Both the position numbers and the translations under genes were made by a program. From Spiroplasma gladiatoris (GTDB lineage: Bacteria > Bacillota_I > Bacilli_A > Mycoplasmatales > Mycoplasmataceae), in contig NZ_CP038013.1 of assembly GCF_004379335.1 (NCBI RefSeq), positions 186,001 through 250,000 on the forward strand: DNA of 64,000 nt, in the 5' to 3' direction. This document shows positions 8,099-44,686 of this stretch, in pieces. Within the stretch, counting starts at the first letter, position 1, and the number at the start of each line of letters is the position of its first letter. The notes beneath the pieces were generated by a model, which was not told the DNA's origin, did no database searches, and was given only the letters and a program-made list of their open reading frames with translations.

Positions 8099-8102
8099 TA
8101 TT

Positions 8103-8137
8103 AAAAATTTATTCTTATAATAAGAATAAATTTTTTT
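8103..8137 (+). terminator. leuS terminator
   Basis: AAAATTTATTCTTAT and its complement form a hairpin ending in T7. Confidence 0.8.
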
Positions 8138-8183
8138 ATAATACAAAAAAATAGTTCTATAATAAATATGTAGAAGATAGAAA

Positions 8184-8689
8184 ATGAGAAAAGTATTAGG
8201 AGTAATAGGGTTATAGACTCAAAAGCAACTATTATAAATTTTGCAATAGCTTGTAACATACAAAACCCTTCAGGTATGTTTGGTAATAATGGAGATAACA
8301 CTATCAAAGATCTTACTTATGTTAAAGATTGTTCAAACTCAGATTTAGTAAAAATTCTTGAAGATGATATTATAGTAGATAAAGTTTTAAGTAAAGACTT
8401 TAGCAAAGATCAATTTAATAATTCAGTTATTAGTTTGAATGTACCAGGAACAATGTATGAAAGTATGGAACAGTATGATAGAATAAAAGTTTTATTTAAA
8501 GAAACACAAAATTATAATTTTAGCCATGATTTTAGTGATAAAACTTTTATTAATTTAAACATAATAACAATAAAAGGTAGTGTTGGAAATAAAGTTTTTG
8601 ATTTATATTTTGTAAATTGTTATGTTGATATTAAAAATAAAAAATACAAATTAGGAGCAGATTATAAAGTAGAAGTTAGAGTTGAATAA
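8184..8689 (+). pseudogene. Decayed lipoprotein gene
   Basis: The start reads MRKVLGVIGL and then hits TAG. From about 8211 the next frame continues with a hydrophobic stretch that ends in a lipobox-like FAIAC (Cys codon at 8252), followed by a polar, mature-like region of about 140 aa to the stop at 8687. One small indel near 8210 explains the break. The intact product would be a short lipoprotein of the Mollicute type. The remaining ORF (from 8276) has no start signal, so it is probably not expressed. A sequencing error is the alternative. Confidence 0.65.
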
Positions 8690-8707
8690 AATTATTTAAA
8701 ACTTTAA

Positions 8708-8736
8708 ATCAAAAGGTATCAAAACCTTTTTTTTTT
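8708..8736 (+). terminator. Terminator after the decayed lipoprotein gene
   Basis: AAAAGG/CCTTTT stem with a T10 tail. The stem is short. Confidence 0.5.
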
Positions 8737-8880
8737 AAAAAAAGTATGTATTATAATTAAATTATTAGGATTAAATTAAATTCTAATAGTTAAAAAGAGT
8801 AATGAGAATATGAGTATAAATATAACGTATTAAAATATGTATTTTTTATTAGCAAATATTTTTATTATAGAAAGGAAATG

Positions 8881-10467
8881 ATGAAAAAAATTATCAAAAA
8901 ATATTGAATGCTTATTTTTTTATGCTTATTTTTTGAAGTAATTGGACAACTTTTATTTATAGGATCTAATTATTTTCAATATACAGTAGTAAATAAAGTA
9001 ATTCAAGAAAACAAATCAATAAATGAAATTTGACTAGAAACATTATTTGCATTTGGTGGTGTTATAGTTTCACTTACTATAACTTATTTTTCTGATTTAA
9101 TGAGATGTAGAATATCATATAAATTAAGAATTAATTTAAAACAAATTGTAAGCTTTAAAATTAATAGTTTAAGTGATGAAGAATATGAAAAAAATAAAAA
9201 AGGGGAATACATTTCATGATACAACAATGAAGTTGAAGCGATTAGTGCTGCTTTAGAAGCTAAACTAATATCGATTTATGTTAGTTTGGTATTAACAATT
9301 TTACCAATTACATTGTTATTTATTTTTGTTCATTGAATTGTTGGACTAGTAGCTTTATTTGGAGGATTACTAACAATATTTGTTCCTTCAATCGCTGGAA
9401 TTTTTCTTTCCAAAAAATATCAAGAAATTGCAATGGAGCAAGGAGAATTTACTCAAGGTATAGAAAATTTAATTAATGGATATGCTGAATTTGCTTATCA
9501 AAATAAAAAAGGATTATTTAGATCTCTAATTGAAAAATTTTCAAACAAAATGGAATCTAAAGTAGCCAAAGTTAGTTACTTTACTTTTGGTATTTCTTTG
9601 TTAATTGGAATTTTACAAGTTGTTTTACAACAAAGTACATTTGTTGGATCAACTATTTTATATTACAATGGTATTGCTTCGCCAGGAGCTGTTATGGTTT
9701 CTATAAACTTTTCTGCTTACTTTATTGAAGGATTTTCAAGTTTAATTGAAAACATTACAAGTATTGGTAAAGGTAAAGGAATAATTAAAAAATATAAAAA
9801 TATTAGAGAATATCAAGAGTATACAAAAAACTCAATTCCTTTTAAAGAATTAAATATAAATAAACTAAATTGTGAAATTGAACAAAAACAAATATTTAAA
9901 GACTTTAATTTGCAAATTGATGCAAATAAAAAATATTTAGTAGTTGGAGAGTCAGGTAAAGGAAAAACTACTTTATTTAAAATTATCTTTGGAATATTAA
10001 ATAAATACTCAGGAGACTTAATTTTGAATAAAGAAATTAATTATAAAACTTTAGTTCCTGAGGATTTAAAAAATCTTTATTCATATGTACCGCAAGAAAC
10101 TACAATATTTAATGATACTATTAGAAATAATATAAGTTTATGAAATAAAGAAATTGATGATAAAAAGATAATTGAAGCACTTAAAAAAGTAAATCTCTCA
10201 AGTTTATTAAAAGATAATACTTTAGATACTGTTATAAATTATGATAATAAAAACTTCTCTGGTGGAGAATTACAAAGAATAGCAATCGCAAGAGCGCTTG
10301 TTGATGAAAAACAAGTCATGATAATGGATGAGATAACAGCAAGTTTAGATAAAGAAAATCGTCAAAATATAGAAAATTTAGTTGGAGAACTAGACAAAAC
10401 AGTCTTATATATTTCTCATACAACTAGTACAAATGACAAAAACTTTGATGTTGTTGTTAAATTATAG
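8881..10467 (+). CDS. ABC exporter half-transporter (membrane plus ATPase), first of a pair
   Basis: 528 aa. The N-terminal half (about 1-310) is an ABC exporter membrane domain. The C-terminal half is the ATPase, with Walker A GESGKGKTT, Q-loop YVPQETTIF, signature FSGGELQRIAIARAL, Walker B plus catalytic Glu (MIMDEITASLD) and H-loop ISHTT. Two ATGs lie side by side (8878 and 8881). I chose 8881 because AAAGGA sits at a proper distance from it. A second half-transporter follows after 11 bases, so the two probably form a heterodimer. Exporters of this shape move peptides, bacteriocins, lipids or drugs; the cargo cannot be read here and no precursor peptide is seen nearby. Confidence 0.9.
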
Positions 10468-10478
10468 AAAGGTTTAAT

Positions 10479-12089
10479 ATGAAAAAATATTATTTTAAAC
10501 TCTGGTATTTATATTTATTTATATTTATATTTGCTACAATCGCTAGTGGTTTAACAGCTTATTCTGTATTATCTCTTGGAAAAAGCATTGATTATGTTAT
10601 ATCTAAAGAAACTAATAAACTTATATTTGCATTATCTTTTTCAGTGGGAGGATTTGTTCTAGGAGTTTCTATTTCACAATTTAATAATTATGTATTAAGA
10701 GCAGCTTTATCAAAAAAACTTAATAATAGTTTAAGACAATTAATAGCAAAAAAAATAAATGCAATGTCTTATTCTGAGTATATTAAAAACAAAAAAGGTA
10801 ACTATATATATTGATTAACAAATGATGTTAACACTATGGAACAATTAGTTTTTGGTTCAACTTTTGAAATTTTTGAAGTAATACCAACACTTATTATTAT
10901 TGGTTATAGTTACTACACAATGCATTGAATGTTAGGTGTAGTTGCATTTTTAGCAACATGCTTTTTAATATTAATTCCTTATATTTTTGCAAAAAGAAAA
11001 TCAAAAATTGAAAACAACCTTTCAAAACTATCTGAAGAGTTAAATTCAGAATCACTTTCTTTGATTAGAGGGTATAAAGAATTTTCTTATAGAAATAAAA
11101 AACCTTTATTTACTAAAATGATGCAAAATAGTTATATAGATTTTGAAAATCAAAAGTTTGGTCAAAATAAATTGTTAAAAACTCAAAAGTGAACAAGCAA
11201 TTTATTATCAGTTGGGTCACAAGCTTTATTATCGTTTTTAGGAATATTATTTTATTCAATTAGCGTTAAAGATAGCAATAGTATATTTGCAGCAAGCGCC
11301 GGATCTGCTTTATCTGCTCCAGCTATGGCTTATCAACTTTTTATGATAGGAAGAACAACAATAAATATTTTTATAAATATGTACTCTGCAAAAGATGTAA
11401 GTAAAAAATTTAATACAAAAATAAAAAATGATATTGAAAATTATAGTCCTAAAGATTTAAATTTTGAAAATTTAGTAATAAATAATTTAAGTTATACAAT
11501 TTCAAATAAACAAATTTTTAAAAATTTCAATCTTGAAATTGATAATAAGAAAAAATATTTACTGGTTGGAGAATCTGGAAAAGGAAAAACTACTTTATTT
11601 AAAATTATTTTTGGCTTAATTGAAAACTATCAAGGAGAAATTAAAATAAATAAAGAACTTGATTATAAAAAGACAGACAAAAGAGATATATGAAATTTAA
11701 TAGCATATGTTCCACAAGAAAATATAATATATAATGCAAGCTTAAGAGATAATTTAACTTTATTTGATGACTCAATAAAGGATGAAAAATTATTAGAAAT
11801 TATAAAACAAGTCAACTTATCAAAACTTCTAGAAAGTATTTCTTTAGATACTATTTTAAATAATGATGCAAAAAACTTATCTGGAGGAGAAGTTCAAAGA
11901 GTTGCAATTGCAAGAGCTTTGGTGCAAAATAAACCTTTTATGATTATGGATGAAATAACAGCTAGTTTAGATTTTGATAACAGACAAATTATTGAAAACT
12001 TAGTTGGGAAATTAGATAAAACAATTTTATATATTTCTCATACAACTGATTTTAATAATAAAAACTTTGACAAAACAATTCAGTTATAA
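10479..12089 (+). CDS. ABC exporter half-transporter (membrane plus ATPase), second of a pair
   Basis: 536-aa paralogue of the preceding gene, with the same order: about six membrane helices, then an ATPase with Walker A GESGKGKTT, YVPQENIIY, signature LSGGEVQRVAIARAL and MIMDEITASLD. Both catalytic glutamates are kept in this and the partner protein, so neither ATP site is obviously dead. The membrane half has diverged far more from the partner than the ATPase half, as expected for an old tandem duplication that became a heterodimer. It starts 11 bases after the upstream stop, with AAAGG before the ATG. No clear terminator follows; decayed DNA begins right after. Confidence 0.9.
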
Positions 12090-12430
12090 AAATAAAAACT
12101 TTTAAAACTTATTTCATTTGTCTTCATTACAAAGTATTACTATATTTATTAATTATAACTCTCCAGATAATCTATTAAATTGCGTTTAAATTATAAACAC
12201 GGTTGATCTAAAACTATTTTTACGTTTTAAAAACACAAAGCATTTTAATACTAGCTATCTAATATTTATTATGTTGAAAAAGTAATAAACTAATTTAAAT
12301 TTTATTATGTTTTAATAAATATAGTTTTATAAACACGAGTAAACTAATGAACATAAAACAAATATTAAATATTTAAAAATTAAATATGATAAATAAAAAA
12401 CTATAACAACTTATTTTTTAATATTTAATT
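12090..12430. other. AT-rich intergenic stretch, no gene seen
   Basis: About 340 bases with stops in all frames, no strong hairpin and no recognisable remnant. Confidence 0.6.
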
Positions 12431-13262
12431 TTAATTATTTACAAAAGTTTGAGTTTCACTAAAGTAAAGATTATTTCCTAAAACTATTCCTTTTTTTCAA
12501 ACGAATACTCTTAATTATAAAACATAATGTTCAAAAAAAGTAGTGAGCGAATGGAATGTAGTTTGCCGCTTTACACAAATTGTGCAATTTAAAATCAAAA
12601 CTTTCTTTCAAATCAACTTTAAAAAAATAAATCAGTTTACTATTTATATATAGTGTATTAAATTCTAATAAAACTAAAACTAAAATATAAGCTATAAATA
12701 AATAATTACCCAAGCTAAAAACATTTTGATTTATGATTATTGACTAAACAAGTCCTAACTCTATAATTAAAATTAACAAATAATTTAAATAGAATAAAAG
12801 GAGAAAGTTTTTAACTTTTAAATTTGCTTTTAAATTTTGAGTATTAGTTTTATTTTCTTCAAAGTCATTATTTTTTAGATAATTAACTTCATCTGATTTT
12901 TTAATTATTTTTTCTTTATAAATAAATATTATAGATAGTATAGCAAAGAAGTAAACAAAAATTAATGAACCCCATGTGTTGTTGTTAAAAATGAAAATGC
13001 AAATAATATAAATCCTAAACAGAAACTAAACCTATAATTTCTGAAAGCAAATTAATTTTTTTAAAATGCATAATTATTATAGCAACCGCGTTAATTAGTG
13101 TATAACCAATAGCAAATGAATATAGTATTATTTCTTCTGTAAAATTTTTAGTAATGCTAGGTTTGTAATTATTTAATATGTTATAAATAATAGTACCAAT
13201 AGAAGATATTATATAAAGTAATCATATTAATGATATAAATATTTTATAATTTTTATATTTAT
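12431..13262 (-). pseudogene. Decayed polytopic membrane protein gene
   Basis: Read on the reverse strand with small frame changes, this gives a continuous hydrophobic protein. Blocks include FISLIWLLYIISSIGTII, ILYSFAIGYTLINAVAIII, FVYFFAILSIIFIYKEK, a polar linker rich in Asn and Lys, then FLLLFYLNYLLILII and YLFIAYILVLVLLEF. It ends GNNLYFSETQ and a TAA. At least three frameshifts and one stop interrupt it, and the start codon is lost. About 270 aa and five or six membrane helices are implied. I cannot name the family. Confidence 0.6.
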
Positions 13263-13631
13263 ATTAACTCACCTCTTTTTAAATTATTATTATAAATATA
13301 ATACTATTTTACTTATCAAAATGTTTTTCATTATACAAAAAATATTTATTTGATTTGTTTTTAATAATTACTCTAAAGATTTACATAAATTTAACAAAAC
13401 TATTTTAATAGAGAATTAAAGTATAATTTTTCTATTAAATTTTTGTTTATTAATAAGAGATTTTGTTATACATAACAATGTCATTCAAATAAAATAATAT
13501 CTAAACTAATTACATTTAAATATACGCTTAATTTTATTTATTTTTATAAGTTTAATAAGTTATTAAATAAAAACTAAAAAAGTAAAATTTAATTTACTAT
13601 ATTTATAATTAAAGTATTTCACTAATGAATA
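13263..13631. other. AT-rich stretch, no gene seen
   Basis: It holds the upstream side of the decayed reverse-strand gene and then featureless AT-rich DNA. No hairpin or remnant can be supported. Confidence 0.5.
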
Positions 13632-14237
13632 ATGAATGAGTATTTTAAATGTTTAGATAAAAATTTTATGTTAGTAGTATATACGCCATTATTTAAACAC
13701 CTTTTTTTACCAAAGCTTGTTCTTAATTATGATTTAAATGAAGTTGTATTTTACAAGTGTTAATATAAGAGATATATAAGACGGTAGCTAAGTGATAATA
13801 TTGAGTTTGACTTTAGCAAATATAGTATTTATAAAGCCAAGCAATTTATAATAAAATTGCATATGCACAAATTAATTATGATTTTATGCAGGAAGATAAT
13901 TCCGGATATAGTGGTGGAGTTATTAAGGAAATTTCTAATCGTTATTATCAAAACATATGCTTATATAGCGTATAAAAATATTTACATATGATATTGAGAA
14001 AATAAGAAGTATAAATGCATAAAGCGTTTATGACAATAGTGGTTTATATAATCAAAACATAGTATTTTTTAAAATATAATATAATTTTTTTATACGTTTG
14101 ATATTAAACTAGAATGTAATAAAATTCATATAAGAACTTCAACAATTGCTGGTAAATGAAAAAGTGATAAAAATTGATCTAATGTTAACTCTAAAGTTAC
14201 TATTAGAGTTATAAGTATCAAATTAATTAATAAATAA
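13632..14237 (+). pseudogene. Decayed coding remnants, probably surface/exported proteins
   Basis: Broken protein-like pieces appear in changing frames: one starting MNEYFKCLDKNFMLVVYTP, one near 13850-13960 containing NYDFMQEDNSGYSGG, and one near 14120-14237 containing TIAGKWKSDKNWSN and ending in TAA. The last resembles the beta-strand style with Gly-Lys-Trp turns seen at the C-terminal ends of the large surface proteins at 40-47 kb (NEYTGKW there). No intact ORF exists. The family link is weak inference. Confidence 0.4.
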
Positions 14238-14353
14238 AAGATAAAATCAGTTATTTGAACAACTATTAGTTTTCTATATTAATTTTTTAATATAAAGAAC
14301 TTTTCAATGTTTCTAACAATTTTTTGCTAAAAATATTTTTGGGTTAATACATT

Positions 14354-14500
14354 ATGTTGGAAGTTAATAATTTACAAAAACCTATGATAAAAAATAACTT
14401 TAGTATTTTTATTGATTTCTTAATGTTCTTGATGTTTCAATAATTGCGTTTGTTAACGCTAATGATTCTGAAAAACAAAAAATACAAAATGCATAGTTAA
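14354..14500 (+). pseudogene. Remnant of an ABC transporter ATPase N-terminus
   Basis: It begins MLEVNNLQK, the usual opening of an ABC ATPase. After one frame change it continues to a ruined Walker A reading IIAFVNANDSEKQK, where a living copy would read like FVGANGSGKST. Nothing of the rest of the ATPase is seen. It is a truncated relic. Confidence 0.5.
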
Positions 14501-14564
14501 TTAGTTAATATAAAAGAGTAAAAAATAAAATTTAATTTAGAGAGTTGTTATAAAAATAAAAACT

Positions 14565-15370
14565 TAAAAAAATTTGATTTAAATAATATCAAAATCATAA
14601 ATTTAGGAGACATTAAAAGTTATGAAACAGATTATTCAAAAAAAGGTTTAGCCGACACCATTAAAAAAATTAATGATGTAATATTAAATCTAAATGATTT
14701 ACAATAAAAAATAACGCGATTATTCATTGCAAAAAACAACAATCTTATTAGTAATGAAAATGAAAATCTATACAAGGAATTATAAAACTATTATATAAAT
14801 ACACGCATAATGAAAATTTTTCAAAAAGCTTAATTAATAATTTTAAGTCTAATACATATTTTGGTATAATATATGTAGTAAATGCAAATATTATAGATAA
14901 TAATATTTATAAAAGTAAAATTAAATTGTAGGACTTTACTAATAATAGCAAGTTTTTAATTTTGAACTTATCAAAAAGTAAATTAGAAAATAAATATTAA
15001 ATATTTTTACGTCTTTAAATTATAAAAATGATTTAGAAGTATGATTTTATTACGAGTTTTATATTAATAAAAGTAGTTACAATGTAAAAGAAAAAAGTTG
15101 ATAAATATTAATAAATTAAATATATCAAATTTCATCAATGAAAATACTAGGTTTTGTGTTCATAACTTATCAAAAAAAGATTGCAAAAAGCTGTAATTAA
15201 TTATTTAAAAAATATCTTAAAAAATAATATTTATATATTAAAATCTACTGATTATATTTTAATAATTACTCATTAGATAAAAATACAGATATATCAACAA
15301 TTAGTTTGGTGGTTTTAGAAACAAGTAATAATTTAATGGAATCTAAAACATTTTTTTAAATATTAAGTAA
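14565..15370 (+). pseudogene. Decayed exported-protein gene(s)
   Basis: Pieces such as INLGDIKSYETDYSKKGLAD, LNLSKSKLENKY and ISNFINENTRFCVHNLSKK alternate between frames and are cut by many TAA/TAG stops. The composition (Asn, Lys, Ile, Ser rich, with INLGDI-like segments) is that of Mollicute lipoproteins. No start or signal sequence survives. Confidence 0.4.
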
Positions 15371-15735
15371 TAAAAATTTCTTTATAAAAAATTATTAGAA
15401 TCAACGATTATAATTAATATTAATTATTTATTTTATATATTATTTATTCATTTTGTCTTTTAATTTTGGTTTATTAAAAACTTAGCTTAAATTTATTTAC
15501 AGCCAAGTTTTTTTAAATACTAATGATGATTTAAAAAAACTTATTAATATTTATAATCATTATTATTTTAAAACTATGAACATATATTATTATTTGTAAC
15601 ATAATTTATTACCAATAAATTGTTATATAATTCACCTAAATATATTAATCTACTTTTTTGTACATAATCACGAGTAACTCATGCTTTTACATACAATAAT
15701 ATATTTTAAAAAAAATTTAAAAATATTATGTATAA
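15371..15735. other. AT-rich stretch, no gene seen
   Basis: Very AT-rich with no open frame. It probably ends with the promoter of the next gene: a TATAAT lies near 15732, but no -35 box is clear. Confidence 0.4.
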
Positions 15736-15756
15736 TATAATATTAAAGGTGAAAAA

Positions 15757-16446
15757 ATGAGTTTAAAAGTAAAAAAAAATATTGCAAAAAAAAGACGGTA
15801 TTATATTTTTATATTTATTCTGTTAATTTTTAAATTATCTATTCATGGGATATTTTCTTTTGAAATTATAAGTCAACTATTAGTAGATATTTTATTTAAA
15901 TCAAACTTAATAATTTTATTAATAAGATTTCTAATTTTTTTAGGAATAGCCTTTATTTTTAAAAAAATAATTAACCAGGACTACTCAAACTCTAGAAAAA
16001 AAATTTTAAAAAAATCTAATTATTTTATAGTATTTTCAATAATGTTAATTGAGTATATATTTAATTTACAAAAAGTATTCTTTAAAAATAAAACAAGTTT
16101 TAGTTTGATTTGATATGAAGAATTTTTTATGTTTATTAAATGAAATTTGAGTTTATTTTTTATTTTAGTTCTTTTATTTATTAGTTATCTTATTTCTTAT
16201 GATTTAAACTTTTTTGTTTATTCTATAGAAGAAGTGTTTAAAAAAATTTTTAAAAAAATTTTTAAGTTTTTAAAATGAGTAAAACTAATAAATAGTTTAC
16301 TAATAAATTACTTAAATAAAATAATTTTAAATTTAATTTTAAAATTTAGATTATTATTTAATTTTATTTTATCTAATTTTATCAAAACTAAACAAATTAC
16401 ATTTTTAAAAACAATTTATGGTGATAATTTCTCAAAAAACTTTTAG
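15757..16446 (+). CDS. Hypothetical membrane protein, 229 aa
   Basis: A basic N-terminus (MSLKVKKNIAKKRRYY) is followed by about four hydrophobic segments near residues 15-35, 45-72, 85-100 and 130-150. An amphipathic, Lys/Phe-rich C-terminal third follows (KKIFKKIFKFLK and similar). The start has AAAGGTG upstream. In-frame TGA codons are Trp. It ends 32 bases before the ABC-2 transporter gene and probably shares its transcript, so it may be an accessory membrane subunit; that is inference. No family recognised. Confidence 0.6.
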
Positions 16447-18322: not shown

Positions 18323-18357
18323 CAAACTCTAAATAATTATTTATTTAGAGTTTTTTT
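18323..18357 (+). terminator. Terminator of the ABC-2 transporter gene
   Basis: AAACTCTAAATAA and its complement form a hairpin followed by T7. Confidence 0.8.
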
Positions 18358-18406
18358 ATTTTGATATAACTCAAAAACCTTGTTAAATAGTAATAAAATC
18401 TATAAA

Positions 18407-18415
18407 TGATATAAT
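18407..18415 (+). promoter_or_regulatory. Extended -10 promoter of the helicase operon
   Basis: TGATATAAT has the TGn extension and a perfect TATAAT, 24 bases before the first start codon. No well-spaced -35 box is needed or seen. It appears to be the only promoter for five genes. Confidence 0.5.
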
Positions 18416-18438: not shown

Positions 18439-21400
18439 ATGGCTAATGTGATAGAAAATGATGGCACTAAAGAAATATTTCTAGATTTTTCTTATCTTCA
18501 AAATGTTATGTTCAAAGATAATGTTTTGGAATTAGACAATATTATTTCAAAATTAGATATAGAAAACATAAACTCTTATCAAGAACTGCAGCTTTTTTTA
18601 AGAAACTCTATGATTAAACAAGCTTTTATTTGCTTAATTGATGATAAAACTAGAAAAATTAATAAAAAAGATAAAAATAGTATTGTATATGATGCAATTA
18701 TAAGAGTGGAATTAAACACAACAAGTCAATCAAAAATGCCAAAAGATACTTATCTTGGGTTTTTTGTAAATATAGATCCTCAAAAACCATATTTAACAAT
18801 TGCTTCAATCTTTCAAACAAGATTAAAACCAATTGCTCAAGAATTTGAATCACTAGTACAAGAATCAAGAATTCAGATAATAAAGTATCAAGGACAAATT
18901 ACTCCTGAAGAAGTTTTAAGAAGAAATGTTTTTAACTCTTCTAATATTGCTTCGATTGGAAAATTAGTTTCTAAATTTGAAGAAGAAAAAAATAAATGAT
19001 TAAACTATTTAGAATTTAGTTATGATTTATTGCAATCTCAAAGAAAATTTTCTTTACCTTATCTTAATTCAAAAATTATTAAAGTTATAAAAATAGAAAG
19101 AAACAATTTTTATAATGACTCTATAAAAAAAGTAAAAATATTATTAACTAATTATAATAATTTTTTTGTAGATTTTAAATATTTAGATTTAGTTAAAGAT
19201 TTAAATATTGAATTTGAAACTTCAAATTTAATAATACTAGATGTTTTATTTAATAATTACAAAGTTTTAGAAAGTTTGAAAAAGCTTAAAGAATTATCAA
19301 TAGTACCTTTAAATACAAACGTTAATCTACCAGCTCTTTATGATTTAACAAAAAATATAGCTGAAATTTTTGATTTTAGCTTTGATAAAATTTTAGATAA
19401 TTCAAAAATGATCAATTTAAATAATCTAATTTTAGAAAAAGAGGATAAAGTTACACTTATTGATTATTGAAAAGAAAAAAAAGAAATTTTATTCGGAGGA
19501 GAAGTAGAATTAAAAGAATTAGCTAAAGAAAATGAAGATTTTTTAAATCAATTACAAGTTACACAATTAGTATATGAAATAGATCAAGAGATTAATACAA
19601 ACTTGTTTTCGAAAAATATTAATTATGAAAACTTAGATTCTGGTTATCTTGCTTATGTTGGATTTGGTGATGATGTATTGATTGAAAGAGGAAGACAAGT
19701 TTTAAAAAGAATATCAGAAGGAAATATAAAAAATCCATATTTAATTAATTACTTATTCAATACCAAATTAATTGACTTATCACAAGAAAATCAAAATTGA
19801 GAAATTAAAAAAGAAGAGTATTATTATTCTTTAAATTACGAACAAAAAGAAGCTGTAAAAAAAGCAATAAATTCTAAAGATGTATTTTTACTTCAAGGTC
19901 CACCAGGAACTGGAAAAACACAAGTAATTTGTGAGATTATTTATCAACTGACAAGACAAAATAGAAAAATTTTAATTTCTAGTCAAAATCATGAAGCTAT
20001 AAAAAATGTTGTAGATAGATTGCCGTATGAACCAAACATAAACAGAATAAGATTAACTAATCAAATTAATGTCAAATCTAAAACTAGTAATAATTTTTCA
20101 CCAGAAAGATGTGTATACAATTATTATAAATCTTTAACCAAGTCAATGTTTGACGATATGAGCTTTGAACAAAATCAAATTGAACATTTAAATGAAATTG
20201 AAAATAATTTAGAAAAATTAATTATAAATAATAAAGGTTATCATCAAAATAATAATCAACTTAGAGAAATTCAAAATCAAATTGAAAGCATTAATGAAGA
20301 GATAAATTTTATTAAGTCAAAAGAAATCGAAAACATACACAAAAAAAATGAAGTTAAAGAAGAATTATTAAATATAGAAAATTTAATTTCAGTATTAAGT
20401 GATTTTAATTTTAACGTAGCTATAAATATTTCTGATTCAATTAATAAAGTTTTTAATCATGAAATAAAATTTATGTTTGAAGAGTTTGTTTTAAATAATA
20501 TCAAAGAAAATATTTTAGAAACAAACTTATTTTTAAAAATAAAAAAAGTTTGTGAAGCAATATTATTTAAAGATGATGTTTTTGTTTCCATAAAAGAATC
20601 TAAGCAAAGAATATTAAATTTAAAAAGAGATGCAGAATTTGATCTAGCCAATAAAGAAGAAGAAACTTTAATAGGTTTAGAAAAATTATTGTTAAATAAT
20701 TTAGTTATTAGTAATTTAATTGAAATTTTATCTACTTTTAGAAAAAGTCTTTTAAATTTAAAAACAGATCTTATTTATAAATTAGAAAATCTAAATCAAC
20801 ATGAAAGCTCTGAAGAAATACTAAATACTTTGGAAGTTAAAAAAAATGAATTATATGTAAATAGAGAAAAGTTAATTGAAACAACAGGGAATAATTCAAA
20901 AGAAATTAGAGAATTAATTAAGTATGCAAATAATAAATTTAAACTTAACTTAGGATTAATGGATGTAGATTTAGAAATTCAGATAAAAGAACAATTAAAT
21001 AAATTAAGAAAAAAATTAGAAATAAGTAAACAAAAAAATGAAAGTTTAAAAGATTTTTACAATATGGTTTCTGGTTATGTTAGTGAAAATTATAATATTG
21101 ATAATGATTGATCAAAAGAATTATCAACGCAAGAGTTTACTAGGCAAATGGTGCAAGACTCAAGAAGATACACTAACTCTGTTTTAAATAATTTAATCAA
21201 TGTATATGCAATGACATTAACTTCTACTAACATGTTTAGATTTAATAAAGATGAAAATGCAAAAAAATTAGGACTTGAAGAAATTAATTTAAGAACAATG
21301 GATGTAGATGTAGTTATAATTGATGAAGCCTCAAAAGCAACATTATTAGAAATTTTAATGCCTTTAATATATGGAAAAACATTAATTTTAGTTGGAGACT

Positions 21401-22287
21401 ATCGTCAACTACCGCCAATCTTAAAATTAAAACAAAGTGATGTTGATTTAGTTAATAATATGACTAATAAAAATTATAACTATCAAGAATTATTTGAGTT
21501 ATTAGATAAATCTGCTTTTAAAAATTTAATAGCCGCAAGAAATAAATCTATCACTACAATGTTAAAAACCCAGTACAGAAGCCATAGACAAATTATGGAA
21601 GTTGTTAATAAATTTTATGATAATGAATTAAGAGTCGAACAGCAAGTTAGTGATCAAAAAAAACATGATTTAATTGTAAACTCAACTCATTGTAATGAAA
21701 TAATAAACTCAAAAAGTTCTGTTTATTGAGTTGATTCAACTTATGATATTAATAATGAAATTTACTATGAACAAGGAGAAGAGTATTCAACAAGTTTGTT
21801 TAACGAATTAGAAGTTAAAATTACATGTCAACTAATTAAAGATATAGATAAATCTATTAAAAATAAAAAAATTTCTTATAAACCAAGTTTAGCTATTATT
21901 AGTTTTTATGGACTACATGTTGAAAAGCTTAAAAAAAGTATAAAAAAAATTAATATAAAAAATATAGATTTAATAATAAGTACTGTTGATGATTTTCAAG
22001 GAAAAGAAGCAGATTATGTTATTGTGAATATGGTCAGAAACCCAAAAAGATTATCATCACAAAACGGAAGAGAGTTTTTAAAAAAATATGAGAGAATCAA
22101 CGTAGCCTTTAGTAGAGCTAAGGAATTACTTTTAATTATTGGTGCGCAAAGAGCTGTTGGAGATATTGTCGTACAAATACCAACTGTTGCTGATCCAAAT
22201 ATTTCAAACACATATGAAGTTTATTCTGATATTATTGCAAAAATTTATCATGAAGGTGGGCTTTTAACAACAAAAGATATTTTGTAG
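18439..22287 (+). CDS. Large SF1 (Upf1-like) DNA/RNA helicase, 1282 aa
   Basis: Superfamily 1 helicase of the AAA_11/AAA_12 (Upf1/Dna2-like) type. Motif I is QGPPGTGKTQ (about residues 486-495), motif II IIDEAS (about 962), motif III GDYRQLPP (about 987), motif IV/V TQYRSH (about 1042), then DDFQGKEADYVIV (about 1182) and motif VI NVAFSRAKELL (about 1220). The catalytic core is split: some 460 residues lie between motifs I and II, much of it a predicted coiled coil (Glu/Lys/Leu/Asn rich, about 565-880). The first 480 residues are an unrecognised region. No nuclease motif was seen. It is first in a five-gene operon; the next gene starts 9 bases after its stop. Expected activity is ATP-driven 5'-3' strand separation; the target is unknown. 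Confidence 0.85.
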
Positions 22288-22296
22288 GAGGAAAAA

Positions 22297-24564
22297 ATGG
22301 TATTTGATAAAGTTGAATTTATTTACAGTAAAGATATATTGCCATTAAAAATTATATATTCAGAAATTAGAAAACCAACTCTAATTGAATTTTTAGTTTT
22401 ATCAATTATCTTAGAACATCCTAATAAGCAAAATAGTTTACAAGAAATTCTTCAAGAAGATTTTAAAATTATTAATACAGAATTATTTGAAAGAGCATTA
22501 AAAGATTTAATAACTTATAAAATAGTTGATTTAAATAAATCAAAAGCTGGTTGAAGTACATTAGGTATGGATATAGAAATCGAAAAATTACAAATCGAAA
22601 AAAATATTATAAATAGCTTTTTAAAAAAAGATTTCATAATTTCTCAAAGTAACAAAGGTTATGATATAAAGTGAGCTTTTGATCAAATTAATAATAGTTG
22701 CGAATTAATAAATGAAGTTTATTGAGATAAACGAGTCAATGATGTTAAGTATTCTTTTAAGTATGAAAAAGATTATGAGAATGAAAATTTTTGAAATAGT
22801 AAAATAATAATGGAAAAATTAAATGATTTTATAAAAAATAATGTTGAAATTTTTGGAACTAACTTTGTTTTTGAAAGTTTAAAAATCAATAATGAATTTG
22901 ACATTGAAAATATAAAGATAGCAAAACCTTTATTGGTAAAGTCTGCATGTGCAATTGAACTTAAAGTTAAAATTATAAAAAATAAATTTGAAGTTCAAAC
23001 AGATGATATTGATTTAAAAACTTTTTTAAATCAAAATACTACCTTGCAAAAAGATATTGTAGAAAGTGTTATAATACAATATAACAAAAAAATATTAGAC
23101 ACATTGGTTCCTAAAAGAGATTTTATTTCTAATGAAGATTTTGAAAAAGAGGAAATTAACATTGGAAGTATAAATATAAAGACTAGTCAAAATTTATTAT
23201 TAATCAATAATCAAGATATAAAAAGTTTTGATAAACTTTTAAACATAAAACATTTACTTTCAAGTGCTAAAACAATAATTTTTTATAATACAAAAGCAAA
23301 CAATAAAACAATAGAAACAAAAAACGGTAGAATAATTTCTTATGTAGAAAGTACAAATGATGAAATATTAAACAAAAATTCTTTAATATATATTGATTCA
23401 GAAAATAATTTAACTGGTTTTGCTATCACCAATTATGAAATTGACTTTTTAAAAATTAAAACTCCAGTTGCTTATAAATTTAAGTATAAAAATAAAATTA
23501 ATTTAAAACAAGTATTTGAAAATAATTTAGAACGTGTTTTAGAAAGTTATAAAGAAGAACTATTAACTGATGAAATAGATAAATCTACAATTACATTTTT
23601 ATTTTTAAAACGTCTAGGTTTAGAGCAAAAACTTAATGATATATTGTTTGACTATTTAAAAAAAGATATTGATCAAGGAAAAAAATTTAAAAGTTTGATA
23701 AGTATATTTTCTAAAGAAAATAATAAAGAAGCTATAAATTTTTTAGAAAATATTTTAAAAAACGTTTTTATAGAGCTTTCTAAAAAAAGAAATTCACAAA
23801 ATATTATAGATCTATTAGAAAGATATAATTTTGAAAATAAAAATATTTTTATTGAACTTATTATTAATATTAATTTAGATGACGAATTAGATAATATTTT
23901 GAGAATAAATACTTTATTAGAAAATAAAAATTTAGACGGATGAAAAATTAATATAAGAAATTGTTTAACTTCACTTTTTAAGTATGCCAAAAATAAAAAT
24001 ATCCCAAGTTTACTTGATGAAAATAATTTTACTTCAGTAATCTACAAACAACATGCAAACATAATAAATAGTATAGGGAAAATTACTAAATATTTATATC
24101 AAGAAAATTTTGATAAAGTTAAAGATAGTTATTTTAGTTTACTAAATAAAATTTTAGACCTGATTAAATCATTTAGCTACATAAATAATTTTAAAGACTA
24201 TTTAATTGCAGTTTCTGAATGCTTAACCCCTTTTTATAAAGCATATTATGATTATAAAATTAAAGAAATTCAATATATGGATAAAGAGTCAAACGAATAT
24301 ATTTTAGAAACTAAATCAGCAAACTTTATAAATCATATTGAAGAACAATTAGATTTAATAATCTCTAATGAAGCAATAACTTTTCCGATTGAGATTAAAA
24401 TAGAGTGAGCAAAACATATCAATAAAAAAATTAATGAAGTTGAAAATATTTTAAATAACGATAGTGCTATTTTATATTTAGCCCTTAATATTGTTTTTGG
24501 AAAAAAAGAAGTTTACTCAAAAGAAAGTTTAATAAACTTTCAAAATAGAATAAGAGGTATTTAA
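22297..24564 (+). CDS. Unknown 755-aa protein, helicase-operon gene 2
   Basis: I do not recognise the family. Residues about 20-90 look like a winged-helix segment (LIEFLVLSIILEHP, then helices and FERALKDLITYKIVDLN). The middle (about 300-400) has alternating beta strands, including SSAKTIIFYNTKA, LIYIDSENNLTGFAI and Lys-rich turns. The C-terminal 350 residues are mostly helical with many Asn, Lys and Leu. No signal peptide, membrane helix, Walker motif or Cys cluster. It overlaps no neighbour: 9 bases after the helicase, 1 base before the coiled-coil gene. Its size and constant position suggest a structural or substrate-recognition subunit of the operon's machine; that is inference. Confidence 0.65.
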
Positions 24565-24565
24565 T

Positions 24566-25657
24566 ATGAGCATGACAGCAGAAGAAGTGTTGTTAAATTG
24601 TAAAAAACAATTTGACTTTATTAATACTGAAATTAACACATTATTAAAATACATACAAGAGCTTATTTTGGAATGCAAAGATATCGATAATTCAAACTTT
24701 TTTTTAGAACAATTTAAAGAGTTAGAAAAAAAAGTTAAATACGAATTAGAAGATTTTAAAAAGGCACAAGATTATGTTGATGAAGTTCAAGAAGATACAC
24801 ATGTTAAAACAGAAAGATATCATGAAATTCAAAGATTTGCAGAAAGGAAAAGAAATAGTTTAGCAGACTTTAAAGCAGAAGTATTAGCTTTAAGAAAAGA
24901 TATAGTAAAAAAAGAACAAAACACAATTGCTAAAAAATTAAATGACTCTCTATTTAAAAATTATGAAGATTTAAAAATAAGTTTGATACAACAACAAAAA
25001 GATGTGGATACAAAAACATTGGTAAAAAATTATTTTGAAAATAATGAAGAAATTTTAAAAAACAAAAATCATGATCAAATAGTTGAAATTATAAATAACT
25101 ACATCATAAACGAAAAACAAGATGTAACTGTTTTGGCAAAAGAAGTCATTAGTAATACAATAAAAGAGTATAAAGAAGATAACGATATATTAAATTCATT
25201 CAAAAATGATGCGCTTGAACTTCTAAAGGATTTAAACCAAGACAACTTCTTTAAAAAAATTAAAAGATTTTATTCCAATTCTTTAAAGAATATTGAAAAT
25301 GAAATAGTTAGAAAAGATAATGTTAAAAAAATAATTCAAGCTATTGAAGATATAGGCTATCATGTTAACGAAAATAATGTGAGAAAAATAGAAGAAAAAA
25401 ACTTGATTATTATTCATGCTCAAAAAGAAACTGGCGAGTCAGCTGATTTTGCTGTAAAATTAGACGGAAGTATTGTTTATAATTATGAAGGCTTCGAAGG
25501 ACATGAACATGATGTTGATGCTAATGATTTTTTAAATAAATTAAAAGAGTATGGAATTAACTCTAGTGAAGCATTCAATAAACAATATAGAGAACCAAAA
25601 TATGTAGCTAAACATAAAGAATTAATCAAAAACAAAAAAACAAATCAAAATAATTAG
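24566..25657 (+). CDS. Coiled-coil protein with C-terminal alpha/beta domain, helicase-operon gene 3
   Basis: 363 aa. Residues 1-260 are almost wholly charged helix (Glu, Lys, Asp, Leu, Gln) expected to form coiled coils. Residues about 265-340 form a compact domain with IIQAIEDIGYHV, LIIIHAQKE, SADFAVKLDGSIVYNYEGFE and a C-terminal helix ending LKEYGI. The tail is basic (KNKKTNQNN). No enzyme motif. Start ATG at 24566, one base after the previous stop, implies translational coupling. It could be a scaffold that links the helicase and the AAA+ ATPase. Family not recognised. Confidence 0.7.
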   Translation: MSMTAEEVLLNCKKQFDFINTEINTLLKYIQELILECKDIDNSNFFLEQFKELEKKVKYELEDFKKAQDYVDEVQEDTHVKTERYHEIQRFAERKRNSLADFKAEVLALRKDIVKKEQNTIAKKLNDSLFKNYEDLKISLIQQQKDVDTKTLVKNYFENNEEILKNKNHDQIVEIINNYIINEKQDVTVLAKEVISNTIKEYKEDNDILNSFKNDALELLKDLNQDNFFKKIKRFYSNSLKNIENEIVRKDNVKKIIQAIEDIGYHVNENNVRKIEEKNLIIIHAQKETGESADFAVKLDGSIVYNYEGFEGHEHDVDANDFLNKLKEYGINSSEAFNKQYREPKYVAKHKELIKNKKTNQNN

Positions 25658-25665
25658 GAGAATTT

Positions 25666-27459
25666 ATGAGTGTAAAAAGAGAAATGCAACAACTAAAAAA
25701 TTTAGTTGGAATTAAAAAAGCTTTAATTATTGAAGGGAATGTTGATGATATTTATTTTTCAGAAGGTAAGTTTATAAATATTCATGAGTTTATAAGTAAT
25801 ATTTTTAAAGAAAAACTTTTTGCTGATAATTTTATTTATGATATAAACTCTGGCATTAGAGGAAGTAAGTTAAAAAACTTAATAATAAATAATGAAAAAC
25901 AAAGTAAAGAACAAGATATTAATGACATGTTTGGTCAAAATGATAATCAAAAATCAGATAATGATAATAAAATGTCTTTGAAAAAAATTATTGATTTTTA
26001 TAAAATATTAAATTCTAATATCAATAGAGAAGATGAAAGAAAAATAGGATTTTTAGTAGATTATACTAATTTTGTATTTAGTGATCAAAGTTTAGACGCA
26101 GAAGATAGAATGGTTCTAACAGAATTTAGTAAAACTTTAAAAGAATCAAAATTTATTTTATCAAAAGTTGATGAATTAACAAATTGCGTTATATTTTTAA
26201 CTCAAAAAATTAATCAATTGCCACCAAGTCTTTATTTAGATAACCCAGAAATTTCAATTTTAACAATACCAAAACCTAATAGAGAGGAAAGAAAAGAATT
26301 TTTATATTCAATTAAATCAATGATAAAAGTTATTGATATAGAATTAGAATTTGAAAATATAGTTGATGCAACAGAAGGTTGAACATTAAAAGAACTATCA
26401 CATTTTGTAAAATTTAGTTGTAACTTTAAACAATCTTTAACTTTTAATAAAATGTTTAACATTTATAAATACGGAGAAAAAGTTTCTCCTTGAGAAGATC
26501 TTGATTATGAAAAAATGAAGAAAATCAAAGAAGATTTAAAATCTAAGGTTATAGGACAAGATGATGCAATTGATAAAGTATCTAAAGTTATTTATAAAGC
26601 TTTTACAGGATTAACAGGAATTACTTACTCTTCTAAAAGGTCTAAACCAAAAGGAACATTATTTTTTGTAGGTCCAACAGGTACTGGTAAAACTGAATTA
26701 GCAAAAGCGATTACAAAGTTTTTATTTAATGATGAAGCTAATTTAATTAGATTTGATATGTCAGAATATGGTCAAGACAATGCAGATCAAAAATTAATTG
26801 GAGCGCCTCCCGGATATGTTGGTTTTGAAGGTGGGGGGCAATTAACTAATGCTATTAAAGAAAAACCGTTTTCAGTAATATTGTTTGACGAAATTGAAAA
26901 AGCTAGTCCAAAAATATTTGATAAGTTTTTACAAATTTTAGAAGACGGAAGATTAACAGATAATACTGGTCAAACTGTAAGTTTTAGTGAAAGTTTTATA
27001 ATCTTTACTTCAAATATTGGTGCATCAGAAGTTGAACCAAATGAAAATAAAGAAATAGTTTATAAACAATTTATTAAAAAAGTTCAAAATCATTTTACTA
27101 ATGAATTAAATAGACCTGAATTATTAGGAAGATTTGGCAATAATATTGTTCCATTTAATTTTATTAGAGATGAAAAATTAAAGGCAAAAATTGTTGCTCA
27201 AAAAGTAAAACCACTACAAATAGCAATTTATGAAAAATACAAAGTAGAATTACACATAAACTTAAATGATACAAATATTCTAAACATAATCTTAAAGGAT
27301 GCAAATGAAAGAAGAGGAGGAAGAGATGTTCTAAACTCTCTTGAAACCAATCTTGTAGATCCACTTTCTGAATATATTTTTGAAAACTTAATACTTATGA
27401 AACCTAATACAAAAATATTTGTAGAAGCAAATATAAATAAATTAAGTTTTAAAATTTAA
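25666..27459 (+). CDS. ClpB/ClpC-like AAA+ ATPase with degenerate first module, helicase-operon gene 4
   Basis: 597 aa. The C-terminal half is a full AAA+ module of the Clp/Hsp100 D2 type: Walker A GPTGTGKTE (about residues 336-344), pore-loop type segment GAPPGYVGFEGGGQL, Walker B ILFDEIEKA (about 403), sensor 1 FTSNIGA (about 447), arginine-finger segment LLGRFGNNIV (about 486), and a D2 small domain with RRGGRDVL. The first 280 residues keep the outline of an AAA+ fold (FLVDYTNFVF, then CVIFLTQKIN and IPKPNREERKEFL) but have no Walker A. No ClpP-binding loop (IGF/LGF type) or Clp N-domain was recognised, so a remodelling role is likelier than protease loading. Its stop overlaps the next start. 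Confidence 0.85.
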
Positions 27460-28055
27460 TGGCAAATATAAATATCGCAAAAATATTAATGGTAAGTGAG
27501 ATTGAAGGTCCTGGAAAAAGGTTTGTAGTGTGATTTCAAGGATGTAATATTGGTTGTAAAGGTTGCTGCAATAAAGAATTACTTGAATTAAAACCAAAAA
27601 TTTTTATTCCAATTGAAATTTTGCTTGAAAAAATATTAGAAGCAAAAATAGATTTTAATATTGAAGGTATAACAATTTTGGGTGGTGAACCTTTTTTACA
27701 ACCCGATGCTTTAAAAGAATTAGTAGAATTTTGTGCAAAAAATTCTTTAACAATAGTTTGTTTTACAGGATATATTTATGAAAAGCTATTAGAAGAATAT
27801 GATAGTATTCTAAAATATATTGATATATTAATTGACGGACCTTTTATAATGAGTCAATTAGATATTAAAAGAAGACTTATAGGAAGTAAAAACCAAAGAG
27901 TTATAAAAATAACAAAAAATTATAAAGATTGTGATTATTTCGAAAAGCCTTATTCTCAAGTAGAAATACAATTATATAAAAGCAGAGTTTCTATTAATGG
28001 AGATGGTGTTGTCTTTGATAATGAAAAAGGAGAGTTTATTTTTAAATTAAAATAA
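27459..28055 (+). CDS. NrdG-like radical-SAM protein, helicase-operon gene 5
   Basis: 198 aa. It has the radical-SAM cluster motif CNIGCKGC (Cys 29, 33, 36), an SAM-binding GGEP motif (75-78) and the partial barrel typical of activases of the NrdG/PflA group: EGPGKRFVVWFQGC just before the cluster, LIDGPF further on. Such proteins cleave SAM reductively and usually put a glycyl radical on a partner enzyme. No NrdD, PflB or other glycyl-radical enzyme lies in the window, so the target is unknown. The ATG shares one A with the stop of the AAA+ gene, so the two products are probably made together. Short for a stand-alone radical-SAM enzyme, normal for NrdG. Confidence 0.85.
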
Positions 28056-37548: not shown

Positions 37549-40098
37549 ATGAAAAAATTATTAAAATTTTTGATGTCATTTGCACTTAGTACAACAGTAA
37601 TTGGTGAAACAACTATTTATTTTATTGATAAAGATAAAAATAATGTGTCAAATAATGACCAAAACGGTGCTCCTGATGGAGATAATTCAGAAACAAATGG
37701 AGTAAAAGATTTAAGAAAGGTAATTAAGCAAAGAGTTTTTAAAGATTTAAAAAATCCAACTGAAATTAATATCTTAACAATAATATCACCATACATTCCA
37801 TCTTTAATGATGAGTGATATTGAACTTAAAGACTTTAAAATGAATGAAGATAATAACTCAGGATCATTTGGATTAAAAGCAAAAAACGATTCTACATTAT
37901 ATTATGGAGAAGTAAAAAATATTGTTTTTACTGTATATAAATATGTTCATGAAGATTTTGAATTGGAAAAATACGAAATCTCAATTAGACCTAAAGAGTA
38001 TGGCGAAATTAAAGTTAAGAATTTATCTAGCTTAGGTGATTATCCTGAAAACTTACCAACTGTATTTACAGGATATGATGAAAAATACATTGATGTTAGT
38101 TTTGATAATGAAAAAAAAGTTATAAAAATAGCAGGAAGAGGTTTGATATATAAAGAAGATATTAAAGTTACTGTTCAATCTGAAGACAAGTTATTTTCAA
38201 AAGAAATCACAGTTAAAATAAAACCTTTTAAATTTAACTTTATTTTAGCAAAAGAAGAAGTTAATATGAGAGTTAATGACACTGAAACAATAGCAGTTAC
38301 AAATTGATCTGAACTTGGTGACGAGCAAAATCAACCAGATGAAGTTGTTGTAAATGAAAAAAATGTTGTTGATGCAGAAATTGTAAAAAATGGCAACTAT
38401 GGAGCTAATTTAGTAATAAGGTCAAAGGGAGTTAAATTATTTGACAATGTTTTAGAGCTTAAAGTATACTCTAAAGATAAAGATTATTATGTAAAAGTTT
38501 ATGTCAACTTCACAACAACTATCGATAATACTCCAACTTTTGGATTTGAAAAAGCAAACTTTAATATGCTAGTGGAAAGTGAATTAAAAATAAGAGTTCA
38601 AAAAATGAATACAGATGAATATAAACCTAAAAAAGTATCATCTAAATCAGGTAATTTGAAATTTTTAAATTACTCAGAAGATGAAACAAGCGAATTTGGT
38701 TATTTAACCTTTAAAGCTGGTAATATAAACGAAGAAAATATTAAAGTTGAAGTATCTTCTGAAAAAAATATAAAACCTCAAGAAATTTATTTTAATATAA
38801 AACCTAAAAAAATGGATTTTAAACTTTCAACTACAACTATTGATATGAAAATCAATAAAGAAGCAACTATTAATGTTACTAATTTTGATGAATTATTAGA
38901 AGAAAATAATTATCCAAGTAAATTTGAGAATGCTAGTTCTGAAAATAACTATGAAAATTATTTAAACATTAAACTTGATCGTAGCAAAAAAGCAATAGTT
39001 ATCAAAGCAAAAGAAAGTCCAAAAAAAGATATTCAAATAGAGGTTCGTTCAGAAAATGGTTTTAAGGCATTATTAAACATTGGCATAAGTGTTGATTATG
39101 TTCCTTTTAACTTAGAACGTCCAACTGACATGTTAGCGTTAGGTGAACAAAAGCTAAAAATCAAAAACTTTAGTAGTTTAAAACATAAAGACAATTATCC
39201 GAGTATATTTAGCTTCAATAAAGATATGAAGGGAAAAATTGATGTTAAGTTAGATGAAAATGAGGGATGCATCATAATCAATTCTTTAAAAGATGAGTAT
39301 GAAACAAATTTAATTTTAGAAATTAAATCAAACACAGGGAACTCTTCTAAATATAAATTTAATGTCATTAAACCAATTAAATTAGAAGATATGCAAAATT
39401 TTGGAGGCCATGTTAGTGAAAATTCAATCGGAGAAATATTGTTGGCATTTAAAAATGCAAATCTAGGTTATTTACACATTGACAGTTCAGAATGAAATTT
39501 ATTAAATGTTAGTGATATAACTTACAATAGTGCAAAAATTAGTACTTCATCTAGTAATAAGTGACTTGTTGGTGGACCAATAATATTTAACTTCTCTTCA
39601 GATTATGAGTTAAGTGATGTTGAATTTCAAACTCAACTAGCGGATGAATATTCTTCTCACAGTGAAAGCAATACTTCATGAGATAATAGTAAAGACATTT
39701 TGTTACCAAAAAAATTGAGTGAATTAAAAACAGAATTTGAAAAACTTGAACTTGAGTTTAATTCTTACACAGCAATTACAAATAGTCAGTATAACCCACC
39801 GTCAAACGACTCAGATTTTGATAAAAAACAAGAAAAAGTTAAGATTTCAATAAAATTAGGAAGTGATTTAGAAGATCAAATTATTAGTAAAAGTGAGTCT
39901 ACTTTTGAAATTGATAGTGATTTGACTGGTATTGTTTTAGCTTCAAATACTTATTCAATTAAATTTAATGAAAACTCTATATCTATTAAGCTTGTTTCAA
40001 GAGCCTATGCTTATAGAAAAGGTGGAAACTGAGGAGCGACAAAAAGAGTTGCAGCTCAAGCGCAAGTCGGTTTGTTAAGTGCAAAATTAACAAAGTAA
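37549..40098 (+). CDS. Exported repeat surface protein, paralogue 1
   Basis: 849 aa. The N-terminal signal/anchor MKKLLKFLMSFALSTTVIG has no lipobox cysteine. An acidic Asn/Asp-rich linker is followed by a small domain (about 48-135; VKDLRKVIKQ to STLYYGEVKNIVF) of a kind common in Mollicute surface proteins. Then come about five repeats of roughly 95 residues with the pattern FxL, a strand ending xVxNxxxL, a NYPSxF turn, and a strand like xIxIKA followed by xVxSE. These look like bacterial Ig-like (Big) beta sandwiches. The last 180 residues are unique to this copy and end in GGNWGATKRVAAQAQ. Likely displayed on the cell surface, perhaps for adhesion. No sortase motif; attachment would be by the uncleaved N-terminal helix. 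Confidence 0.7.
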
Positions 40099-40103
40099 AC
40101 ATT

Positions 40104-40153
40104 TAATAAACTAAAATTTATTTTATTTAATAAAATAAATTTTAGTTTATTAA
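40104..40153 (+). terminator. Long hairpin after surface protein 1
   Basis: A 23-bp near-perfect stem (AATAAACTAAAATTTATTTT and its complement) with a very small loop. The T-tail is weak, so it ends or processes the transcript by structure rather than by a classic terminator. Confidence 0.6.
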
Positions 40154-40280
40154 GCTAATTAAAATCTATACTTTTTAGGTATTAATAATGTTTCAAACTT
40201 GCTAATTTTTATAACTTCAAATACTATATTGATATATAAGTAATTTTAAAATTAATTCGTTATTTAAAAGGAGGTTCAAA

Positions 40281-42860: not shown

Positions 42861-42957
42861 AAACTTGTTAATAAAACTGTACTTATTAAAAAATAAAAAA
42901 AATTTACACTATTCATAGTAAATATGCTTTGTCAAGTATACAAAATGTTTTTTATAA

Positions 42958-42988
42958 AAATACTTCAAAATTATTTGAAGTATTTTTT
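42958..42988 (+). terminator. Hairpin terminator just inside the IS left end
   Basis: AATACTTCAAA and its complement followed by T7. It probably now ends transcription of surface gene 2. Confidence 0.65.
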
Positions 42989-43019
42989 TATGTGAAATAA
43001 AACCGGTATAAGCATATTC

Positions 43020-44199: not shown

Positions 44200-44286
44200 A
44201 TAAAAAATTCTCCTTGTATAATTTTATGTTTTTTTAACATAATGAATTCTTAGAAAATTATATTTACACTTATTTATAGTGTAAAT

Positions 44287-44686
44287 ATTTTTAAATTTTT
44301 ATTGTTAAAAAACTAATAATTTACTATATGTAAAATATAATCTAAATATTTATGCAACCAATTTATTTTTAAAATAAATTGGTTGCATAAATACAGTGAT
44401 TATCCTATTGTTACTTGTTATGACTATATATTTTATTAATTGTAAATTTTTTACTAATAAAACTTTCAGCATTAAAAACATTTTCATATAAAAAGTAATG
44501 ATTAACTAAAATATTTTATAAAACACTTTTTATAAATCCTAAAAAAAAATTAAGTTTATAAAAAAGAATAACCCTTTTTAAAGGCACTATTTAAAGTGTT
44601 TGAAGACTATCTACAAAAAACATAAGTTTGCTATATTTAATTTAATAAAATATTATAATAATATAATATTTAAAAAAGGAGTTATT
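44287..44686. other. Intergenic region upstream of surface protein 3
   Basis: No gene. It holds a perfect palindrome (separate entry) and presumably the promoter of surface gene 3, with TATAAT-like boxes near 44651-44668. Confidence 0.5.
44348..44392. repeat. Perfect 45-bp palindrome (22-bp arms, 1-base centre)
   Basis: ATTTATGCAACCAATTTATTTT is mirrored exactly by its complement at 44371-44392. The inner GCAACC/GGTTGC block is unusually GC-rich for this region. No T-run follows, so it is not a typical terminator. Confidence 0.85.

Follow-up and report, generated by a model that had tools for sequence, protein, structure and literature searches.

The window analysed here, a 64,000-nucleotide stretch of the mollicute-type genome of Spiroplasma gladiatoris (1.16 Mb, a single contig), carries five tightly packed genes for a helicase (P1), two proteins that are hard to name (P2 and P3), an AAA+ ATPase (P4) and a radical-SAM protein (P5). 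This raises the question of whether the five work as one machine and, if so, what such a machine would do. The choice of genetic code matters for this locus, because under table 11, a reading that was rejected, TGA breaks P1, P2, P4 and P5 and leaves P3 (363 aa) as the sole intact gene. Under code 4, with TGA read as tryptophan, all five genes are intact on one strand, with gaps of 9, 1, 8 and -1 bases behind an extended -10 element, which confirms the layout of the original prediction (Table 1). AGGTGAG precedes the P1 start codon, ATG 18439. Neither the extended -10 nor the upstream hairpin was ranked by the consensus scanner, which requires three G-C pairs in a hairpin and left this A/T-rich one unscored. 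Upstream of the operon lie ABC transporter genes and the gene for leucyl-tRNA synthetase; downstream lie a nitroreductase pair and then two further genes, which from their translations we take to be folD and formate-tetrahydrofolate ligase.

Table 1. Positions of the operon genes and associated signals in the window
Feature	Position	Strand	Description
Terminator-like hairpin	about 18325-18358	+	A/T-rich hairpin and T-run at the end of the upstream ABC gene; read from sequence
Extended -10 of the operon	18407-18415	+	TGATATAAT; read from sequence
P1	18439-22287	+	1282 aa, SF1 helicase (Upf1/SEN1/Dna2-type)
P2	22297-24564	+	755 aa; N-terminal adaptor with YxExRKPT motif, helical C-terminal half
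P3	24566-25657	+	363 aa; coiled coil, then conserved C-terminal alpha/beta domain
P4	25666-27459	+	597-aa AAA+ protein; degenerate N-terminal AAA-like domain and ClpB-D2-like module
P5	27459-28055	+	198-aa radical-SAM protein

Elsewhere in the window, about 3.6 kb without a substantial code-4 reading frame (12127-15757), flanked by ABC transporter genes on one side and by a 229-aa gene on the other, is decayed DNA upstream of the operon. The region 37549-47323 encodes large proteins (849, 859 and 907 aa), and a Pfam scan of the 849-aa and 907-aa ones gave no match.

All 20 genomes of the window's genus have the order P1-P2-P3-P4-P5, and so do representatives from four other genera in its family, so that the set is not a product of chance. 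These loci, 20 from the genus and five from the four other genera, were the ones first examined, and further genomes agree with them. P3 is present in all 20 genus genomes and in 38 of 60 genomes of the family, and is absent from whole sister genera. In two loci (L122 and L123) P2 was first assigned from where the gene lies, and a profile match followed (98%, E 2e-13). Broken frames of P1, P2 and P5 occur in G013, and L177 (G489), in which two opposite-strand genes lie between P3 and P4 (5687-7983) and the P2 frame is broken, is a decaying copy of the cassette. Within the window's genus the distances of all five proteins track those of rpoB (rank correlation rho 0.80-0.84), from which it follows that the cassette is old and vertically inherited there; mean identity across the genus is highest for P4 (77%) and lowest for P2 (42%). 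The suggestion that the locus might be recent accessory DNA is therefore not supported for this genus, where it is instead conserved, mostly syntenic and mostly kept in one chromosomal place.

The sequence motifs of the helicase, the AAA+ protein and the radical-SAM protein are intact. P1 matches the Pfam families AAA_11 and AAA_12, retains motifs I (residue 487), II (962), III (986), IV (1043), V (1184) and VI (1221), and has SEN1, SMUBP-2, DNA2 and UPF1 among the solved structures that it matches. P4 begins with a degenerate AAA-like domain (about residues 1-275) without a recognisable Walker A, followed by an active ClpB-D2-like module with Walker A at 336, the pore motif GYVG at 383, Walker B at 406, sensor 1 at 447, the Arg finger region at 483 and sensor 2 at 550. 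Only this second module matches the ClpB family model (residues 280-595, 259 of 1232 bits), and P4 thus lacks the two active AAA modules and the full-length family score that mark a ClpB/Hsp100 disaggregase. P5 has CX3CX2C at residues 29-36 and GGEP at 75, and matches Fer4_12 (E 2e-33).

Recurrence of the order in unrelated genomes beside defence or mobile genes, which had been proposed as the mark of a system, was borne out. In other families of the class the same order is found, made up of the helicase, a protein of 706-738 aa, P3, P4 and P5, with the exceptions of L131, which has P3-P5 only, and L134, which has no called P5. The cassette is also carried by plasmids of Photobacterium, Acinetobacter, Moellerella, Polaromonas and Leisingera, where the genes are annotated, in order, as AAA domain protein, PIN domain protein, hypothetical protein, AAA ATPase and 4Fe-4S protein, and where integrases, transposases, HsdR, HsdS, ArdA, DarT and a nuclease are encoded nearby. 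Profile comparison across the groups links P1, P4 and P5 at 100% probability and P3 at 98.0-99.7%. The cassette moves, as shown by two genomes with only 56% rpoB identity whose P4 proteins are 92% identical (G293/G384); a second pair has 90% for P4 and 47% for rpoB (G384/G475). Conversely, P4 is 66% identical between two genomes of one genus with 96% rpoB identity (G282/G384), and two genomes with identical rpoB (100%) have P2 at 57% and P1 at 69%. In the P4 tree the window's family and the Bacilli form group together, followed by the mycoplasmas and then the proteobacteria, and the Clostridial form stands separately; G475 belongs to the same order as the window, and its copy falls inside the Bacilli form, which indicates transfer. 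The cassette thus moves horizontally beyond the family of the window, whereas within the genus it is inherited vertically. In viral contigs, all of the 80 matches listed were to the generic Clp ATPase half; a search of phage genomes for P3, P2 and P4 found none, and nothing close to the Moellerella cassette was found in E. coli genomes.

Two further branches vary the composition. Mycoplasma-type genomes have P1-P2-P3-P4 without P5 in about 16 loci, several of them decayed, and since this four-gene form occurs, the core can exist without P5. A second locus of this type, encoding a helicase, proteins of 598 and 341 aa and an AAA+ protein with no radical SAM, was seen in a genome of the window's genus (L144, G001:C1:782000-800000, 7685-16213). 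The Clostridial relative comprises a PDC-S37 helicase, a Ser/Thr kinase, an MSGPK coiled-coil protein, a zinc-ribbon FHA protein, P5, P4 and PP2C, and often a DUF4236 protein as well; a Rhizobium plasmid locus (L152, 11992-22088), in which P4, P5 and an MSGPK protein accompany a 2086-aa fusion of kinase, helicase and nuclease, is a fused form of it. Common to the branches is a core of helicase and P4, with P5 in most of them. Among individual loci, L127 has an RNase III-like gene (10876-11376) that begins 2 bases past P5 and may be a sixth cassette member or have no relation to the cassette; in L133, too, P5 is followed by a similarly sized gene. A radical-SAM protein of the P5 kind also belongs to another recurring cassette, on plasmids of Paenarthrobacter, Rhodococcus and Paenibacillus (L154-L156, L159), together with an AAA ATPase, a small protein (DUF1257 in one), DUF2997 and often an HHH protein, with HNH, SIR2 or DNA methyltransferase genes nearby in some cases, and a Treponema succinifaciens plasmid (L158, 11938-14093) carries a radical-SAM and AAA ATPase pair within a contractile-injection-like gene cluster.

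The most variable component is P2. No Pfam or NCBIfam family matched it, and profile comparison links it to the Bacilli form at E 4e-7 to 7e-7 (probability 92-93%; 7e-7 over 460 columns). In profile alignments of the relatives a YxExRKPT-like motif is kept at the N-terminus and the C-terminus varies: three proteobacterial proteins end in PIN_4 (E 1e-19 to 5e-22), one Bacilli protein matches DUF4145, and RNxxxH is found in six of six Bacilli P2s and in one mycoplasma P2; the P2 of G475 also shows it, as RNVYTH. Rx4-6H, here RNxxxH, is the signature of HEPN RNases, and we infer from the motif and the DUF4145 match that the Bacilli end is probably a HEPN domain. The P2 of the window contains no PIN or HEPN nuclease and no Rx4-6H motif recognisable by Pfam, profile comparison or motif search, and does not match the HEPN end of the Bacilli form; its single-sequence AlphaFold model (pLDDT 36.6) was set aside. 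The 755-aa protein, first proposed as the recognition part, is thus better described as an adaptor with a variable C-terminal effector, PIN/HEPN-like in relatives.

P3 likewise matched no Pfam or NCBIfam family. Its C-terminal domain is common to the proteobacterial (E 3e-13), Bacilli (6e-21) and mycoplasma (6e-7) forms. The Clostridial MSGPK protein shares with P3 its neighbourhood, a coiled coil and a similar alpha/beta C-terminal layout, yet profile comparison of the two was not significant even with 59 P3-type sequences. In the predicted MSGPK fold (pLDDT 82.6), for which Foldseek returned no match at E<=0.001, VIA-align found the Chk1 KA1 domain (Z 8.7, rmsd 2.4, 86 aligned), with AMPK, SOS2 and METTL16 in lower rows and unrelated rows at similar Z too; this is a hint of a KA1-like domain in the model of the Clostridial protein, not in P3. 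Residues E246, R249, G290, D318 and P344 of P3, considered as marks of P5-bearing loci, were discarded, because the P5-less loci are one clade in the P4 tree and the set is confounded by phylogeny.

The five genes form a unit in distantly related bacteria, in which P2 homologues end in PIN/HEPN-like RNase domains. On balance we favour the view, drawn from sequence comparison, that the operon encodes one multi-protein, NTP-driven machine for nucleic-acid surveillance or conflict, with a swappable RNase in relatives. P1 would be the sensor, translocating on foreign or aberrant RNA (or DNA), and P2 would link it to the effector RNase. P3 may serve through its coiled coil as a scaffold and through its C-terminal domain bind either RNA or a partner, and the P4 ring would remodel the complex, arming or recycling it. 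P5 could place a radical-SAM modification needed for activity on a partner from the cassette, P3 being a first guess; its role and substrate in the machine are guesses. On a trigger, the PIN/HEPN forms would cleave RNA, so that the cell becomes dormant or the invader is cleared. The window's genus may have lost or replaced the RNase and retained the machine, perhaps as a domesticated defence or for RNA quality control. The joint travel of a helicase, an adaptor that bears an RNase, a ring for remodelling and an enzyme for modification fits a triggered conflict system. Against it count the presence throughout the genus and in much of the family, unlike the patchiness of a typical defence system, and the missing recognisable nuclease and Rx4-6H motif in the window's P2.

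The same retention in a reduced-genome genus, congruent with rpoB and mostly at a conserved chromosomal place, could also mean that the cassette serves housekeeping RNA or protein quality control, as a bacterial analogue of Upf1-type surveillance in which helicase, RNase and unfoldase deal with the cell's own stalled or aberrant RNPs and plasmid copies are cargo. The nearest solved helicases, SEN1, UPF1, SMUBP-2 and DNA2, would suit such a role. We nevertheless consider it rather unlikely, since the cassette is dispensable, as its absence from whole sister genera shows, is rapidly exchanged and diverges among near-identical genomes of other families, and has defence-like plasmid neighbourhoods.

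Improbable, too, is that the cassette is a Mokosh-type RNA-targeting antiviral system with extra subunits. No named system fits the set, as had been anticipated: PADLOC gave no complete match to the five genes, with no model for P2 or P3, matches of P1 and P4 mainly to ATPase cores and a weak one for P5, and no paper describing the set was found in the open literature, although a name in subscription papers is possible. Mokosh (MkoA/MkoB) is the nearest named relative for P1. Both have an SF1 Upf1-type helicase, and among PADLOC models P1 matches MkoA best in the window (319.5 bits, residues 328-1242), in Bacilli and on plasmids; moreover, in the relatives from Clostridia and Rhizobium a Ser/Thr kinase occurs together with helicase, radical SAM and AAA, so that a kinase would be confined to those forms. 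However, a helicase match alone is generic, and because the MkoA model is not exclusive, matching it is necessary and not sufficient for Mokosh type I. The Ser/Thr kinase of that type (MkoB or an MkoA fusion) has no counterpart in P1-P5, where Pfam, NCBIfam and PADLOC found no kinase family. Three further genes (P3, AAA+, radical SAM) are fixed here, the RNase of cassette relatives is PIN or HEPN-like and on a separate protein, and we know of no AAA+ or radical-SAM subunit in Mokosh.

The ATPases Dodola DolB and PDC-M37B share the ClpB-like AAA+ module (64-116 bits to P4-type proteins), but the match is confined to the ATPase core, the other components are unmatched and P4 starts with a degenerate AAA domain of its own. 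For the helicase-nuclease candidate PDC-S37, the Clostridial helicase scores 1215 bits, whereas the window's P1 is weakly related (57 bits) and lacks the C-terminal REase. In eukaryotic nonsense-mediated decay, UPF1/SMG6 pairs a Upf1-type helicase with a PIN RNase, and one branch of cassette relatives adds a kinase; this is an analogy only, with no homology proposed outside the helicase core and PIN fold and no counterpart of the AAA+ and radical-SAM proteins. In passages of Kaur et al. 2020 (PMC7159879) on NTP-dependent conflict systems, AAA+ machines, variable effectors, PIN with SF1 helicase and occasional radical SAM recall the cassette, but many of the systems centre on vWA-MoxR or GTPase components; the P1-P5 operon has no vWA gene, and the five-gene set does not appear in those passages.

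That P5 is merely an activase for NrdD or PFL, placed by chance at the end of a helicase/AAA operon, can be rejected, because although NrdG and PflA are its best family names and NrdD and PFL are present in the window's genome, P5 is intact in four genus genomes (G001, G005, G007 and G009) without NrdD, PFL or a glycyl-radical domain, separate NrdG and PflA genes adjoin nrdD and pfl, and P5 accompanies the cassette in alpha-, beta- and gammaproteobacteria. P5 shares with these activases the family core, CX3CX2C and a GGE motif, and PflA is among the solved structures that it matches; it scores 97.9 bits against the NrdG equivalog, below the cut-off of 126.1, and differs further in being tied to the cassette. 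Of the 20 genomes of the window's genus, 14 have NrdD and 10 have PFL, and searches for NrdD (NRDD), PFL-like and Gly_radical (PF01228) sequences found none in those four genomes or in G013, whose P5 frame is broken. The classical glycyl-radical substrate once envisaged for P5 is thus not supported, and P5 most likely acts on another substrate. Likeness to viperin (pVip; 34 bits in PADLOC, 33.6 of 180 bits in NCBIfam) is limited to the common radical-SAM core, well short of a viperin assignment.

Tentatively, the surveillance or conflict machine that we favour could be an antiviral or anti-plasmid system that crosses phyla and has so far gone undescribed. In it a radical-SAM enzyme would post-translationally arm a helicase/AAA+/RNase complex with interchangeable PIN/HEPN effectors, and one family would have domesticated the system as a core function. 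Helicase, unfoldase-like and radical-SAM genes that annotation pipelines leave separate ('AAA family ATPase', '4Fe-4S single cluster') are now tied together in a concrete, testable five-gene set. Viperin aside, one would not expect to meet a radical-SAM maturase in a defence-like RNase machine, and retention of the cassette throughout a genus of reduced genomes raises the question of what such genomes still need it for.
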